From assembly GCA_029215795.1 (NCBI GenBank), contig JARDYH010000001.1, positions 230,729,654-230,793,653 of the forward strand: a DNA stretch of 64,000 nt. Direction: 5' to 3'. A model generated the notes under the pieces. It was not told where the DNA came from, did no database searches, and saw only the letters and a program-made list of their open reading frames with translations. This DNA is from Anniella stebbinsi (lineage: Eukaryota > Chordata > Lepidosauria > Squamata > Anniellidae). Every line of letters begins with the position of its first letter. The first letter of the stretch is position 1. A program made the position numbers and the translations under genes. Of the stretch, positions 2,711 through 46,715 are shown one piece after another.

Positions 2711-2934
2711 CACTTGGTTGCCTAAGAATCACCATGCATTTATTTGGCTTAACAAACCCATTTAACTGAATGCTAATTCACATTGCTACAAGTGCTTGGC
2801 ATGTGCATTGTATATGGTGGGCATTGGTCAAGATTTGGTACAGCACTGCCCAAATCAGGAAGTTTTATCATTGCTTACCAGATTGCAACAATCACAACAT
2901 TAAACAAAACAATTTCAGTATAGAAATCTTTAAG

Positions 2935-3117
2935 GGAAGGGCTCAGTGGTGGAGCACATGCTTTGCATGCAGAAGGTCCCAGGTTCAATCCCTGGCTTCT
3001 TGAGATAGGACTGAGAAAGGCTTCCAACTGAAAACTGGAGAGCTGCTGCCAGTCAGTGTAGGGAATATTGAGCTACATGGACCAATGGTCTGAATCAGTA
3101 TATGGCTACGTTCTATA
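2935..3117 (+). mobile_element. tRNA-Ala-derived SINE (copy 1)
   Basis: The head 'gggctcagtggtggagcac' is a tRNA A-box region, 'ctttgcatgcag' matches the anticodon arm of tRNA-Ala(TGC), and 'ggttcaatccc' is a canonical B box. A tRNA-unrelated body follows ('gagagctgctgccagtcag', 'tggaccaatggtctga'). The head lacks a proper acceptor stem, so it is a SINE and not a functional tRNA gene. Related copies are at 17037 and 28475. Confidence 0.88.
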
Positions 3118-5599: not shown

Positions 5600-6500
5600 G
5601 AATGGAATGCCTCTTTCCCTGGGTCAGAGATTGTCAATACCCCCCAACCTTGGGCCATTTTGGCCAGAGGTCATGACCCTTCCACCTTTTGCAGACTCTG
5701 AAGATGAGCTTCAGAGTAATATCCCCAACCCTTCTATTCTATAGAAGCCAGTGCTTACAGAATCAGACAAGGACCCTTTAAGACAGCATAGCCAGGTCGC
5801 ACAAGGAGGTGTGGCCAACCACAGTACAGGTCTTATCAGCCTACATAAGGCTTCAGATGAGCTCAGCTCTCTGTTGAGACAACATCTCTCTAGAGTACAG
5901 CCAGTAGATAACCTGTTTAGAAAGATATGCCTTGATTGAAATTTGCCTGAACTGATCTGTCTGAGAAAGCCATTGTTTGAATGGTTCCACTTTCTCTGTG
6001 AGCCTGAGCAAAACAGGACAGAGATGGGGCTGATATTGTAGTGGAAGAATTGCTTTTCCTCTACCTGACCCAAGTAGTTCTTGGCATGGAGAAGCCATCC
6101 CAGGCAGTCGCGAGAGCAGGTTCTACATCTTCTGGCTATGCTATAATGTGTATGCACTGATTATGATCCATGAGTCTGAACTTCCACACACTCTCCTTCT
6201 AAAATGTGCTGATTTCACTTTTTACTGCTATTTTAGATTTTTCAGCTTGTATTTTGAAACCATTCCCACAACTCTGCTAGGTTCTAGGGCTTGGAGATGT
6301 GGTAAATATCCTCTGAGAGGTGATGACGGTTAGCCACCCTGATGCATAATAATACTGCCCTTCCTGTTTCATTTTGGGCCAACTTTGTGGTGGTCTCTGA
6401 TATTGAATTAATCCGTAATTGAGAAAAGACGAAACTGTGTCTCACTTCAGCCTTGGTCTTAAACTATCCTGTCAGATCCTTATCTGCCTTGAGCACTTAT
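5600..6500. other. Possible LTR-retrotransposon-like remnant
   Basis: This block has several overlapping short open frames on both strands (up to 148 codons on the minus strand, 5711-6157). Its texture (gactctgaagatgagctt, then a polar stretch) resembles the coding end of the LTR-like remnants near 51.3 and 52.7 kb. I cannot show paired LTRs, a primer-binding site or a domain. It may equally be unique DNA. Confidence 0.2.
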
Positions 6501-20123: not shown

Positions 20124-20566
20124 TAGAGATGCATGAAAAATTAATTTCAGTTTGGTTTTTATCGGGATTTACCCAGTTCATACCTTCCAGATCAAACATG
20201 GACTCGGATGCAATCTGTGGTCAAAGTCCATCAATTTCCAAGCTTGCAATTTGATTTGCAGCTCCCCCCCCCAAAAAAAACACGCTTGACAGCATGCACA
20301 CTTTCAAGAAGTGCACACAGATACACCTTTGAGAAGTGCACGCAGGTGCACTTTAATCAGTGGGACAGGAATGTGTACATTTCAACAATGAGCACAATTG
20401 AAGCAAACGTTTGGGAAAATGGACACAAAAATACACATGGTGTTTCATGTGAAAAGGGAAAAAAACCAAATTTCTCAATCAGATATGGACTCGAGTCGGA
20501 ATGAACTTCAGAATGGAGTTTGGAGAACTTTGGGAAGCGCAGGTTTTGCCAATTCTCACATCCCTT
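20124..20566. mobile_element. hAT-like non-autonomous element (443 bp)
   Basis: The left end tagagatgcatg and right end ctcacatcccttt are imperfect inverses, and related to the ends of the large foldback element at 43341 (tagggatgtgca). Flanks tactagat (20116-20123) and tatcagat (20567-20574) match at 6 of 8 positions, both differences being transitions. The interior has a row of related 'aagtgcac..a..cac' words. There is no coding capacity. Confidence 0.75.
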
Positions 20567-34091: not shown

Positions 34092-34411
34092 TAGGCTGAC
34101 CATATGAAAAGGAGGACAGGGCTCATGTAACTTTAACAGTTGTAGAGAAAAGGGAATTTCAGCCAGTGTCATTTGTATGCAATTAGTTCCTGGTGAAATT
34201 CCCTCTTCATCACAACAGTTAAAGTTGCAGGGGCCCTGCCTTCGTTTGTATATGGTCACTCTAGTATAGTGCCTGCAACTTTAACTGTTGTGATGAAGAG
34301 GGAATTTCACCAGGAACTAATTGCATACAAATGACACTGGCTGAAATTCCCTTTTCTCTACAACTGTTAAAGTTACATGAGCCCTGTCCTCCTTTTCATA
34401 TGGTCAGCCTA
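34092..34411. mobile_element. Palindromic hAT-like MITE (best-preserved copy, 320 bp)
   Basis: taggctgaccatatgaaaag at the left and its exact inverse at the right. Perfect 8-bp flanks agtgattc (34084-34091 and 34412-34419). The arms are nearly perfect inverses over ~140 bp around a short centre (tatatggtcactctagtata). The 100-codon frame across the right edge is an artefact of the element. Confidence 0.94.
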
Positions 34412-35626: not shown

Positions 35627-35948
35627 TTTAGGGTGACCAGATAAAATCCAGGTCAGGGCTCATGTAACTTTAATAGTTGTAGAGAAAAGGGAATTTCAAC
35701 CAGTGTCATTTGTATGCAATTAGTTCCTGGTGAAATTCCCTCTTCATCACCACAGTTAAAGTTGCAGGCACTATACTAGAGTCACCATATACAAAAGAAG
35801 GCAGGCCCCCTGCAACTTTAACTGTGGTGATGAAGAGGGAATTGCACCAGGAACTAATTTCATACAAATGACACTGGCTGAAATTCCCTTTTCTCTACAA
35901 CTGTTAAAGTTACATGAGCCCTGACCTGGATTTTATCTGGTCAGCCTA
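35627..35948. mobile_element. Palindromic hAT-like MITE (copy 6, ~320 bp)
   Basis: Starts tttagggtgaccagataaa and ends tttatctggtcagccta. Flanking gtataaac occurs at 35619-35626 and 35949-35956, an exact 8-bp duplication if two extra T bases are counted as part of the left end. The interior is the same two-arm layout as the others. Confidence 0.88.
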
Positions 35949-43024: not shown

Positions 43025-43340
43025 ATCCTACCCTTCCTCCAAGGAGCTCAAAGTGGTATACACTCACATTTGATCCTCACAACATCCCTAGCTCCATTAC
43101 GGGTTCCGGCAAACATGGAGACCATTTGTACATGCATAGGCCTCTTGTTTTCAGATGATTTACACCTTAATTGTGTGATGTTAGGGGGTGGGACTATGCA
43201 GCACAGTCCTGCTCCCTGCTGATGAGTTCAGGTAAGTGAGCTTTTGAATGTCCCAATATGATTCCTATGAGGTAGGCTATTCTCAGAGATAGTGATTGGT
43301 CCAAGGTCACCCAATGGACCATGCTGAGTGGGGATTTAAA
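43025..43340 (-). mobile_element. Sauria-type SINE, minus strand, first part (host of the hAT foldback)
   Basis: 3' half: 'ccttcctccaaggagctcaa' and 'tgatcctcacaac' (43030-43088); middle: 'tatgaggtaggctattctca', 'tccaaggtcacccaatgg', 'gctgagtggggatttaaa' (43266-43340). About 170 bp at 43090-43262 do not belong to the SINE and may be another insertion. The 5' head resumes after the foldback element at 46662. Confidence 0.75.
43333..43340. repeat. Left 8-bp target-site duplication (gatttaaa)
   Basis: gatttaaa here equals 46662-46669. It lies inside the SINE motif 'gtggggatttaaac', so it is SINE sequence copied at insertion. Confidence 0.92.
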
Positions 43341-43362
43341 TAGGGATGTGCACTGACCCCCC

Positions 43363-43472
43363 GGATCGGATCGGATAGCGGATCGGAATCGGACCTGGGG
43401 GGTCGGATCGGATCGGATCGGATCGGAGGCTGGTCGGATCGGATCGGACCAGATGTCCGATCCGGATCGGAC
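43363..43472. repeat. Left (CGGAT)n-rich terminal block
   Basis: Repeated cggatcggatcggatcgg words broken by short spacers (cctggggggtcgg, aggctgg), dense in CpG and GATC. The mirror block is at 46519-46650. Confidence 0.92.
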
Positions 43473-43520
43473 GCCATTTTGAATGCTTTTTCCCATAGCC
43501 AAGTATTGTTTTACAAAAAC

Positions 43521-44578
43521 GCCTATAACTTTTTCATTTTTAAAGATAGAAGGATGAAACTTGGGCACATTGTAGACTGGTTAGGGGTAGTTATCTGTGA
43601 GAAATTTCAGAAAGATTGGTGCATGCATTTTGTGGCAATTAATTTTTTAATAAATACCCAGGAATGCCTATAACTTTGTCATTTTTAAAGTTACACACAT
43701 GAAACTTTGCCACATTGTAGGGGGTACCTTGGGACCTATGTGTGTGAAATTTCAGAAACGTAGGTGCTTGTCTTGTGTGGCAATTAATTTTTAGAAAAAT
43801 GGGTAGTAGTGGGGTAAATACAGTTACGCCTCCCATTTTTTTATTTTTGAAGATACAAACAGGAAACTTGGGCACATTACAGGTACCACGTGCCTTGATA
43901 TGTGTGTGAAATTTCAGAAACATTGGAGCTTTCCTTGTGTGGCAATTAATTTTTGAAACAATGAGGAAAGAAACACCTATAACTTTGTCATTTTTAAAGT
44001 TACACACATGAAACTTTGCCACATTGTAGGTGGTACCTTGGGACCCATGTGTGTGAAATTTCGGAAACGTAGGTGCTTGCCTTGTGTGGCAATTAATTTT
44101 TTAATAAATACCCAGGAATGCCTATAACTTTGTCATTTTTAAAGTTACACACATGAAACTTTGCCACATTGTAGGCGGTACCTTGGGACCTATGTGTGTG
44201 AAATTTCGGAAACGTAGGTGCTTGCCTTGTGTGGCAATTAATTTTAGAAAAATGGGTAGTGGTGGGGTAAATACAGTTACGCCTCCCACTTTTTTATTTT
44301 TGAAGATACAAACAGGAAACATGGGCACATTACAGGTACCACTTGGCTTGATATGTGTGTAAAATTTCAGACAGCTGGGTCCAGGCATGTGGTGGCAAGG
44401 TATTTTTGAAACAATGAGGAAAGAAACGCCTATAACTTTTTTATTTTAAAAGTTAGAAGTCTGAACATTGCTCACTTTGTAGATGGGTTAGGGGTAGATA
44501 TGTGTCAGAAATTTCAGAATGATAGGTCCAGGCATTTGATGGCTATGGAATTTTTAAATTACATGTTTCAAAAAAATT
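43521..44578. repeat. Left-arm higher-order repeat: seven ~150-bp monomers
   Basis: Monomers start at the 'gcctataact' or 'gcctccca' word at 43521, 43666, 43828, 43975, 44120, 44281 and 44428. Spacings are 145, 162, 147, 145, 161, 147, so the pattern repeats every three monomers (454/453 bp). Each monomer carries a 'gtgaaatttcagaaa' block and a 'gtggcaattaattttt' block. Confidence 0.9.
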
Positions 44579-44584
44579 TCTACA

Positions 44585-44950
44585 GAGGCCAGGTCTTCCC
44601 CTCCCGCTTCCCGCGAAGAAAAGGAAACACTCTCTCGTCTCGATCCCTACTAGCAAGGATCCATTACAGGGCTCGTGTTTCCTTTCCTACTTTCACTTTT
44701 CACTTTGTACTCAAGCAGACACGAGCCCTGTAATGGATACTACCAAGGATCAAAGGGATCGAGACCAGAGTGATCCTTCCTTGCACGCATGGCTGCAAAA
44801 CTCAGCTAGGCTCAGCCGTTCTGCTTGAAAAGTGAAAGTAGGAAAGGAAACACGAGCCCTGTAATGGATACTACTAGCAAGGATCAAAGGGATCGAGACG
44901 AGAGAGTGTTTCCTTTTCTTCGCGGGAAGCGGGAGGGGAAGACCTGGCCT
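44585..44950. other. Centre of the foldback: inner arms and spacer
   Basis: The inner arms (44585-44718 and 44821-44950) contain 'cttcccgcgaagaaaagg', 'aaacactctctcgtctcgat' and 'cattacagggctcgtgttt'. A third partial copy of the inner arm sits in the 102-bp spacer (cacgagccctgtaatggata, 44731). Small differences between the arms (an 11-bp insertion near 44707 and an indel near 44650) lie here, while the outer arms are almost identical. Confidence 0.8.
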
Positions 44951-44969
44951 CTGTAGAAATTTTTTTGAA

Positions 44970-46490
44970 ACATGTAATTTAAAAATTCCATAGCCATCAA
45001 ATGCCTGGACCTATAATTCTGAAATTTCTGACACATATCTACCCCTAACCCATCTACAAAGTGAGCAATGTTCAGACTTCTAACTTTTAAAATAAAAAAG
45101 TTATAGGCGTTTCTTTCCTCATTGTTTCAAAAATACCTTGCCACCACATGCCTGGACCCAGCTGTCTGAAATTTTACACACATATCAAGCCAAGTGGTAC
45201 CTGTAATGTGCCCATGTTTCCTGTTTGTATCTTCAAAAATAAAAAAGTGGGAGGCGTAACTGTATTTACCCCACCACTACCCATTTTTCTAAAATTAATT
45301 GCCACACAAGGCAAGCACCTACGTTTCCGAAATTTCACACACATAGGTCCCAAGGTACCGCCTACAATGTGGCAAAGTTTCATGTGTGTAACTTTAAAAA
45401 TGACAAAGTTATAGGCATTCCTGGGTATTTATTAAAAAATTAATTGCCACACAAGGCAAGCACCTACGTTTCCGAAATTTCACACACATGGGTCCCAAGG
45501 TACCACCTACAATGTGGCAAAGTTTCATGTGTGTAACTTTAAAAATGACAAAGTTATAGGTGTTTCTTTCCTCATTGTTTCAAAAATTAATTGCCACACA
45601 AGGAAAGCTCCAATGTTTCTGAAATTTCACACACATATCAAGGCAAGTGGTACCTGTAATGTGCCCAAGTTTCCTGTTTGTATCTTCAAAAATAAAAAAA
45701 TGGGAGGCGTAACTGTATTTACCCCACTACTACCCATTTTTCTAAAAATTAATTGCCACACAAGACAAGCACCTACGTTTCTGAAATTTCACACACATAG
45801 GTCCCAAGGTACCCCCTACAATGTGGCAAAGTTTCATGTGTGTAACTTTAAAAATGACAAAGTTATAGGCATTCCTGGGTATTTATTAAAAAATTAATTG
45901 CCACACAAGGCAAGCACCTACGTTTCCGAAATTTCACACACATGGGTCCCAAGGTACCACCTACAATGTGGCAAAGTTTCATGTGTGTAACTTTAAAAAT
46001 GACAAAGTTATAGGTGTTTCTTTCCTCATTGTTTCAAAAATTAATTGCCACACAAGGAAAGCTCCAATGTTTCTGAAATTTCACACACATATCAAGGCAA
46101 GTGGTACCTGTAATGTGCCCAAGTTTCCTGTTTGTATCTTCAAAAATAAAAAAATGGGAGGCGTAACTGTATTTACCCCACTACTACCCATTTTTCTAAA
46201 AATTAATTGCCACACAAGACAAGCACCTACGTTTCTGAAATTTCACACACATAGGTCCCAAGGTACCCCCTACAATGTGGCAAAGTTTCATGTGTGTAAC
46301 TTTAAAAATGACAAAGTTATAGGCATTCCTGGGTATTTATTAAAAAATTAATTGCCACAAAATGCATGCACCAATCTTTCTGAAATTTCTCACAGATAAC
46401 TACCCCTAACCAGTCTACAATGTGCCCAAGTTTCATCCTTCTATCTTTAAAAATGAAAAAGTTATAGGCGTTTTTGTAAAACAATACTTG
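44970..46490. repeat. Right-arm higher-order repeat: about ten monomers
   Basis: Inverse of the left array plus one extra 454-bp unit. 45421-45874 and 45875-46328 read as identical tandem copies, so the right arm has three periods where the left has two. The mirrored open frames 45148-45414 and 44122-44388 encode the same peptide, showing how little the arms differ. Confidence 0.9.
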
Positions 46491-46518
46491 GCTATGGGAA
46501 AAAGCATTCAAAATGGCG

Positions 46519-46650
46519 TCCGATCCGGATCGGACCTCATCGGATCGGATCGGATCGGATCGGAGGTTGTCCGGATCGGATCGGATCGGATCGGATTTTC
46601 CCGATTTTGGGTCGGATCGGATTCGGATCGTGGATCGGATCCGATCCGAT
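46519..46650. repeat. Right (CGGAT)n-rich terminal block
   Basis: Inverse-equivalent of 43363-43472: tracts of four to five cggat units separated by 'ggttgtc' and 'ttttcccgattttgggtcg', ending in ggatccgatccgatgcacac. The tract lengths differ from the left block, as expected of an unstable pentamer. Confidence 0.92.
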
Positions 46651-46661
46651 GCACACCCCTA

Positions 46662-46715
46662 GATTTAAACTTGGGTCTCCCCAGTTCTAATCCAATTTTC
46701 TAACCATTACACATC
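46662..46715 (-). mobile_element. Sauria-type SINE head, minus strand, resumed after the foldback
   Basis: gatttaaacttgggtctccc ... ctaatccaattttctaaccattacac is the tRNA-derived head in reverse (B-box region near 46662-46680). It completes the SINE begun at 43025; the first 8 bases are the right target duplication. Confidence 0.85.

Follow-up and report, generated by a model that had tools for sequence, protein, structure and literature searches.

Foldback transposons whose arms are made of tandem repeats are known chiefly in insects and in sea urchin, either as orphans or as P-type elements; the FB elements of Drosophila and the TU elements of sea urchin are foldbacks of this kind, with arms of short tandem repeats. 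Tetris, from Drosophila virilis, is described as a non-autonomous foldback with long inverted arms composed of ~220 bp tandem repeats, with a repeat number that is variable between copies and with target duplications of 8-10 bp; in the same account the source of its transposase is given as not found, and its repeats also form satellite-like arrays of kb size (PMC4079207). Galileo, also from Drosophila, is described as comprising both autonomous and non-autonomous copies, whose inverted arms are long and variable; one copy in D. willistoni has ~140-bp direct repeats, and for D. mojavensis the same account cites arms that lengthen through direct repeats and by recruiting internal sequence (PMC4168063). 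It is assigned to the P superfamily, with a THAP transposase (PMC3688188, PMC4079207), and FB4 is also treated in PMC8277862. The family that we describe here from the genome of Anniella stebbinsi functions like these foldback elements, and Tetris and Galileo are the closest to it among those compared by description. It is an array-armed foldback with a hAT partner, a variant on known foldback transposons. It shares with Tetris, by the description of the latter, its non-autonomous nature, the inverted arms of tandem repeats, the variable repeat number and the target duplications, but differs from it in that a partner was found and no long arrays were seen. Like Galileo, it includes both autonomous and non-autonomous copies, and its inverted arms are likewise long and variable, whereas its transposase is of the BED/hAT type and monomer arrays are present in every copy examined. 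The likeness to FB and TU lies in the tandem-repeat arms, and the differences in repeat sequences, host and (for FB) superfamily.

The element under study lies in a window of 64,000 nucleotides (the whole stretch of DNA that was analysed), where positions 43341-46661 form an insertion of 3,321 bp with 12-bp inverted ends, flanked on both sides by GATTTAAA (Table 1). The exact 8-bp duplication and inverted ends that the first-pass annotation had reported are thus confirmed. The termini, TAGGGATGTGCA on the left and TAGGGGTGTGCA on the right (read from the other end), differ in 1 of 12 bases, and ~110 bp with many CGGAT repeats follow each of them. The two ends, A and B, nonetheless differ in sequence; both are conserved across 19 aligned copies (with small deletions in some) and are also present on a transposase-bearing partner. 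Short inverted ends with subterminal repeats are a feature of the hAT superfamily, seen here as 12-bp ends with one mismatch and CGGAT at both ends; the target site duplication of 8 bp, which is present in all elements with both ends, is another. Features of foldback elements are found as well: the inverted arms make up most of the length, with little or no middle, and the number of tandem repeats in the arms differs from copy to copy. The open frames of the element reach at most 127 codons among those listed; a Pfam search of two of them gave no family above the cut-off, and Rfam, at gathering thresholds, gave no match inside the element. The one tRNA match that Rfam did give elsewhere in the window is a tRNA-like sequence at 2933-3003 (35.3 bits).

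Table 1. Features of the foldback element and of its insertion site (window coordinates).
Feature	Position	Strand	Remarks
Target site duplication, left copy	43333..43340		GATTTAAA, directly outside the element
Target site duplication, right copy	46662..46669		GATTTAAA, directly outside the element
End A	43341..43454	+	TAGGGATGTGCACTGACCCCCC plus subterminal CGGAT repeats
End B	46539..46661	-	TAGGGGTGTGCATCGGATCGG plus subterminal repeats; distinct from end A
Left inverted arm	43455..44702	+	7 monomers, B-A-C-A-A-D-E from the outside inwards
Central spacer, 123 bp	44703..44825		Delimited by arm alignment
Right inverted arm	44826..46535	-	10 monomers, in the order of the left arm with one additional A-A-C trimer
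Extra 454-bp unit	45361..45814	-	One of many equivalent placements; absent from L029, L030 and L031
Interrupted dispersed repeat, left part	43264..43340	+	Joined-flank alignment to three other copies
Interrupted dispersed repeat, right part	46670..46712	+	Joined-flank alignment

When the two flanks are joined, the resulting sequence aligns through the junction with three further members of a dispersed repeat family, which represent the empty site (identity of 65-69% over 121-137 bp, with E from 5e-13 to 1e-9); the element therefore interrupts an older repeat, which we take to be a tRNA-like SINE. Target duplications identical at 8/8 positions flank all 19 both-ended elements among 21 places examined by similarity to the window copy, as well as all 8 both-ended elements among nine loci chosen by end A, so that, with the partner included, all 28 elements with both ends carry them. 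The empty site and these 28 of 28 duplications support the earlier reading of the locus as a foldback transposon. The target consensus of hAT elements is nTnnnnAn, and among the target duplications of the 19 elements, 16 have A at position 7, and position 2 holds T in 13 cases and A in the other 6: the pattern is followed as a preference and not as an absolute rule. The window also contains repeats of ~300 bp (1404-1736, 2393-2709, 34093-34410 and 35630-35947), which match the flanks of two fetched loci (L027 and L028) in both orientations, and many other fetched loci.

Using the left 560 bp of the element as a query against the genome, we obtained 46 matched stretches from 32 scored candidates, and 20 loci were fetched; together with the window these are the 21 places mentioned above. 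The 19 elements with both ends range from 1,748 to 5,363 bp. The two places left out are L009, in which no end B was found, and L024, which matches neither end exactly; a second, cut-off copy in each of L012, L016, L021 and L032 is likewise excluded. Genome-wide, a 27-base word from end A is found at 6,265 places with at most 1 mismatch (0 for the reversed control), and at ~3 kb per copy the family would thus occupy about 1% of the 1.89-Gb genome. The second sample, of nine loci taken on the plus strand near the top of the end-A listing (from which 2901231, 2906734 and 2930996 were skipped, and in which 3014255 was chosen partly for another end 4 kb further on), yielded eight complete foldback copies of 2,710-3,299 bp and one locus, L037, with no second end within 4.2 kb. 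The copies differ in age, as three near relatives diverge from the window copy by 0.35-0.60%, and other copies by several percent, with L017 and L020 reaching ~9-10%. In the literature, titles and abstract starts among the matches listed held no description of the family, for which repeat-library entries (e.g., in Repbase) may exist; the five matches for the end sequences concern, by their titles and abstract starts, other topics.

Several further observations were made at these loci. The longest copy (L017:2318-7680, 5,363 bp) has a palindrome that continues into a CpG-rich interior of ~2 kb, possibly captured host sequence. At L009:1112-3160, L016:625-2202 and L022:21-1843 there are further elements, which have ends of the TAGGGRTGTGCA type and exact duplications of 8 bp; they consist of CG-rich nested inverted and tandem repeats, and apparently represent related families with the same type of end. 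A different element at L017:9212-9901, with a TAGGGATGTGCA end and subterminal repeats of the ATCGT/ATCAT type, holds a diverged copy of the arm monomer (nhmmer 2.3e-13), which is therefore shared across families. Finally, the end-A places are mildly clustered in the first 27 Mb of contig 1 (7 of 99 gaps shorter than 8 kb versus 2.9 expected, P 0.027), reflecting either local hopping or uneven density.

The arms are near-identical and inverted, as had been noticed at first pass. A gapped alignment pairs them inwards from 43455/46535. Over the outer 1,193 paired bases it contains 2 mismatches, and over the innermost 54 it contains 3; short gaps occur close to the centre, and a single gap of 454 bp corresponds to an extra unit of the right arm. 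A spacer does separate them, but it measures 123 bp and not ~102 as first estimated. With an inverted identity of 99.8% over more than 1 kb, and an architecture that recurs in many copies, we see no room for chance. The description of the arms as ~150-bp monomers in a 454-bp period of three also proved accurate, both from the monomer spacings (145/162/147/145/161/147 in the left arm, 147/161/145/147/162/145/147/162/145 in the right arm) and from TRF (period 454, scores 1531 and 2383). When clustered at a distance of 13%, the monomers mostly sort into five types, A to E. The trimer is A-A-C; over 19 elements, the likeness among A monomers averages 94%, and that of C to A is 74%. The two arms are unequal, with 7 monomers (2 1/3 trimers) on the left versus 10 (3 1/3 trimers) on the right, the latter reading B-A-C-A-A-C-A-A-D-E from the outside inwards. 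Bases at i and i+454 are identical at 545 of 545 positions (45361-45905), and the extra unit is missing in all three near relatives (L029, L030 and L031), the copies at 0.35-0.60% divergence from the one in the window. Arrays thus grow by whole repeat units, here by an exact tandem duplication in the right arm. The idea of a transposon that is itself a higher-order array is supported, with the correction that the third trimer is an exact duplication belonging to this copy and not found in the three near relatives.

A search for a transposase-bearing element with the same ends, which the first-pass annotation had proposed as a check, was successful: such an element lies at C1:6829595-6840170. 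It is 10,576 bp long, carries ends A and B, and has a CTTATCTT target duplication on both sides. Its inverted arms are 98.3% identical over 1.1 kb and comprise 8 and 7 monomers related to those of the window element, the first three resembling types B, A and D at 87-90% and those further in being more divergent; no match to the central sequence of the window element was found in it. This partner contains an unbroken open frame of 866 codons (842 counted from the first ATG), for which zf-BED (3.9e-10) and Dimer_Tnp_hAT (1.8e-15) are the only Pfam matches at E <= 0.01, with no THAP-type P transposase at this threshold. Its similarity to Hermes-type transposases (1.1e-12 to 4e-12) covers residues 788-850 only. 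The acidic residues D380, D461 and E821, presumably the catalytic positions, are all present, and 5 of 8 aligned relatives lack one or more of them, as would be expected if those are decayed copies. A protein search (7,991 candidates scored) gave 12 relatives that are 38-49% identical, one of which covers 20% of the query; they come from crocodile, lizards, caecilian, frog and python, among others, in agreement with the squamate origin that had been supposed. They include ZBED4-like hAT transposases of vertebrates (Crocodylus porosus, Anolis, Hemicordylus, Eublepharis) with a BED and/or a hAT dimerisation domain, and we know of no array-armed elements for transposases of this group. The partner is a hAT element, and since it has the same ends as the window element together with a BED zinc finger and a hAT dimerisation domain, the hAT membership of the latter, at first only an inferred label, is strongly supported.

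In a search with the hAT dimerisation domain, for which 150 of 1,498 candidates were scored, many had unbroken frames of ~866 codons, and a transposase word was found at 735 places with at most 2 mismatches (control 0). On contig 1, 11 exact transposase places are listed in the first 27 Mb, and each of them lies 7.6-10.2 kb from a listed end A in the expected orientation, versus a mean of 0.14 and a maximum of 3 under random placement (20,000 draws), for a range of 5-12 kb that was set after the distances were known. One partner was read to both ends and a second one, L037, over its left 4 kb; the latter is 99.3-99.5% like the first in three long stretches, and the transposase word lies 8.7 kb from its end A. 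As a separate observation, the transposase-bearing element has further internal tandem arrays outside its arms (L038:1889-5730), with spacings of ~162 bp and ~148 bp and units up to 99.8% alike. A match in the partner resembling a tRNA-splicing endonuclease was rejected as a repeat artefact, as it lies in a tandem array and below the curated cut-off.

The two arms of an element are more alike than arms of different elements. For the outermost monomer, compared with no similarity filter in 18 of the 19 elements (L018 has no right-hand monomer), left and right differ by 2.36% within elements versus 4.41-4.57% between them, a value reached in 0 of 20,000 permutations. For the outer 560 bp of the arms (11 of 19 elements), the figures are 1.08% versus 2.84-2.88%, again with 0 of 20,000 permutations, in a set restricted to elements with arms differing by less than 6%; as this filter acts on the tested quantity, the unfiltered test was added, and its effect is weaker but still clear. 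Both tests draw on elements that were identified through their resemblance to the window copy. Fixed differences between left and right amount, in the filtered set, to six gap columns at trimmed edges. Most likely, then, the arms copy each other, and repeated recent births of palindromes could contribute. Some features would fit such births as the sole cause, with one arm duplicated in inverted form in recent, recurrent events and no ongoing exchange between the arms: homogenisation is incomplete, minor states being common to both arms in only 79 of 233 element-columns, many copies have partly asymmetric arms, and some copies are very close to each other (0.35-0.60%). We consider this explanation rather unlikely, though it deserves to be kept in mind, as ends A and B have stayed distinct while the arms are alike, the arms of the partner are 98.3% alike mutually versus only ~90% like the outer arm of the foldback, and the likeness within elements goes beyond permutation in both tests.

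Monomers of ~150 bp, a higher-order period of 454 bp and the exact duplication of a unit all resemble satellite DNA, and Tetris of D. virilis is described as forming satellite-like arrays (PMC4079207). The arrays could accordingly be a pre-existing satellite captured by the transposon or spreading with it, and the element could seed satellites at new sites, as was suggested at first pass. The genome assembly gives no support to this seeding. A word from the C monomer is found at 20,366 places with at most 2 mismatches (control 0), versus 6,265 ends, hence 3.25 array words per end A, which is close to the 64 exact matches of a shorter word in the 19 elements. The first 100 exact places of the C-monomer word form 36 clusters, 30 of which lie within 5 kb of a listed end A; 27 of the 36 contain both orientations, strictly inward-facing in 26 of these, and the longest run on the same strand is 3. 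The six clusters with no listed end nearby may have diverged or lost ends. Since array words track ends and same-strand runs do not exceed three, the arrays stay inside elements in this sample and assembly, and no long arrays independent of the element were found in the assembled sequence with this one word and in the layout of its first 100 exact places. As far as the assembly shows, the family does not appear to be making satellite DNA. Given also that related monomers sit inside the arms of the partner, we find a satellite origin highly improbable.

Palindromes of this size are hard to assemble, and a collapsed or mis-joined inverted repeat might come to mind; yet with intact target duplications at 28 of 28 both-ended places, an empty site, and this form recurring in 8 of the 9 loci that were chosen through a single end, we give very little credit to an assembly artefact. 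Least credible of all is a composite of two oppositely oriented insertions, for which ends A and B could derive from two neighbouring copies (and copies do lie close, with 7 of 99 gaps below 8 kb versus 2.9 expected), as the whole element is bracketed by one target duplication and the usual unit is A...B with inward-facing arms.

We are thus confident in reading the window element as a non-autonomous foldback member of an abundant and recently active hAT family, with arrays and arms evolving as follows. The element would move by cut-and-paste, mobilised in trans by the transposase of the ~10-kb partners that have the same ends and array arms. Its arms most likely began as tandem ~150-bp monomers within the inverted arms of a transposase-bearing element; the 454-bp trimer would have been duplicated in the non-autonomous lineage, and the window copy would then have gained one more exact trimer, in one arm. 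The arms do form a graded series, from the partner (B-A-D first) to the standard foldback (B-A-C-A-A-D-E) and the window copy (one more trimer). The first step would run from partner to standard foldback, and the direction of the last, from standard foldback to window copy, is read from one copy versus three. Copying from arm to arm would most likely proceed by gene conversion or template switching, during repair or replication, and may maintain the palindrome while the arrays change.

It is tempting, if speculative and on balance improbable, to view the arrays as working parts of the transposon, kept in both kinds of elements, with unit-adding copies favoured in transposition or protected by arm-to-arm repair. 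If so, the family would offer a natural setting, open to dating, in which higher-order repeats arise and are homogenised outside centromeres. One vertebrate genome here combines thousands of end sequences, a partner with related monomers and a graded series of arms. The family suggests that transposons can bring array DNA to thousands of sites with no long satellites, as far as the assembly shows, and it opens the steps by which higher-order repeats are born and homogenised to direct counting.
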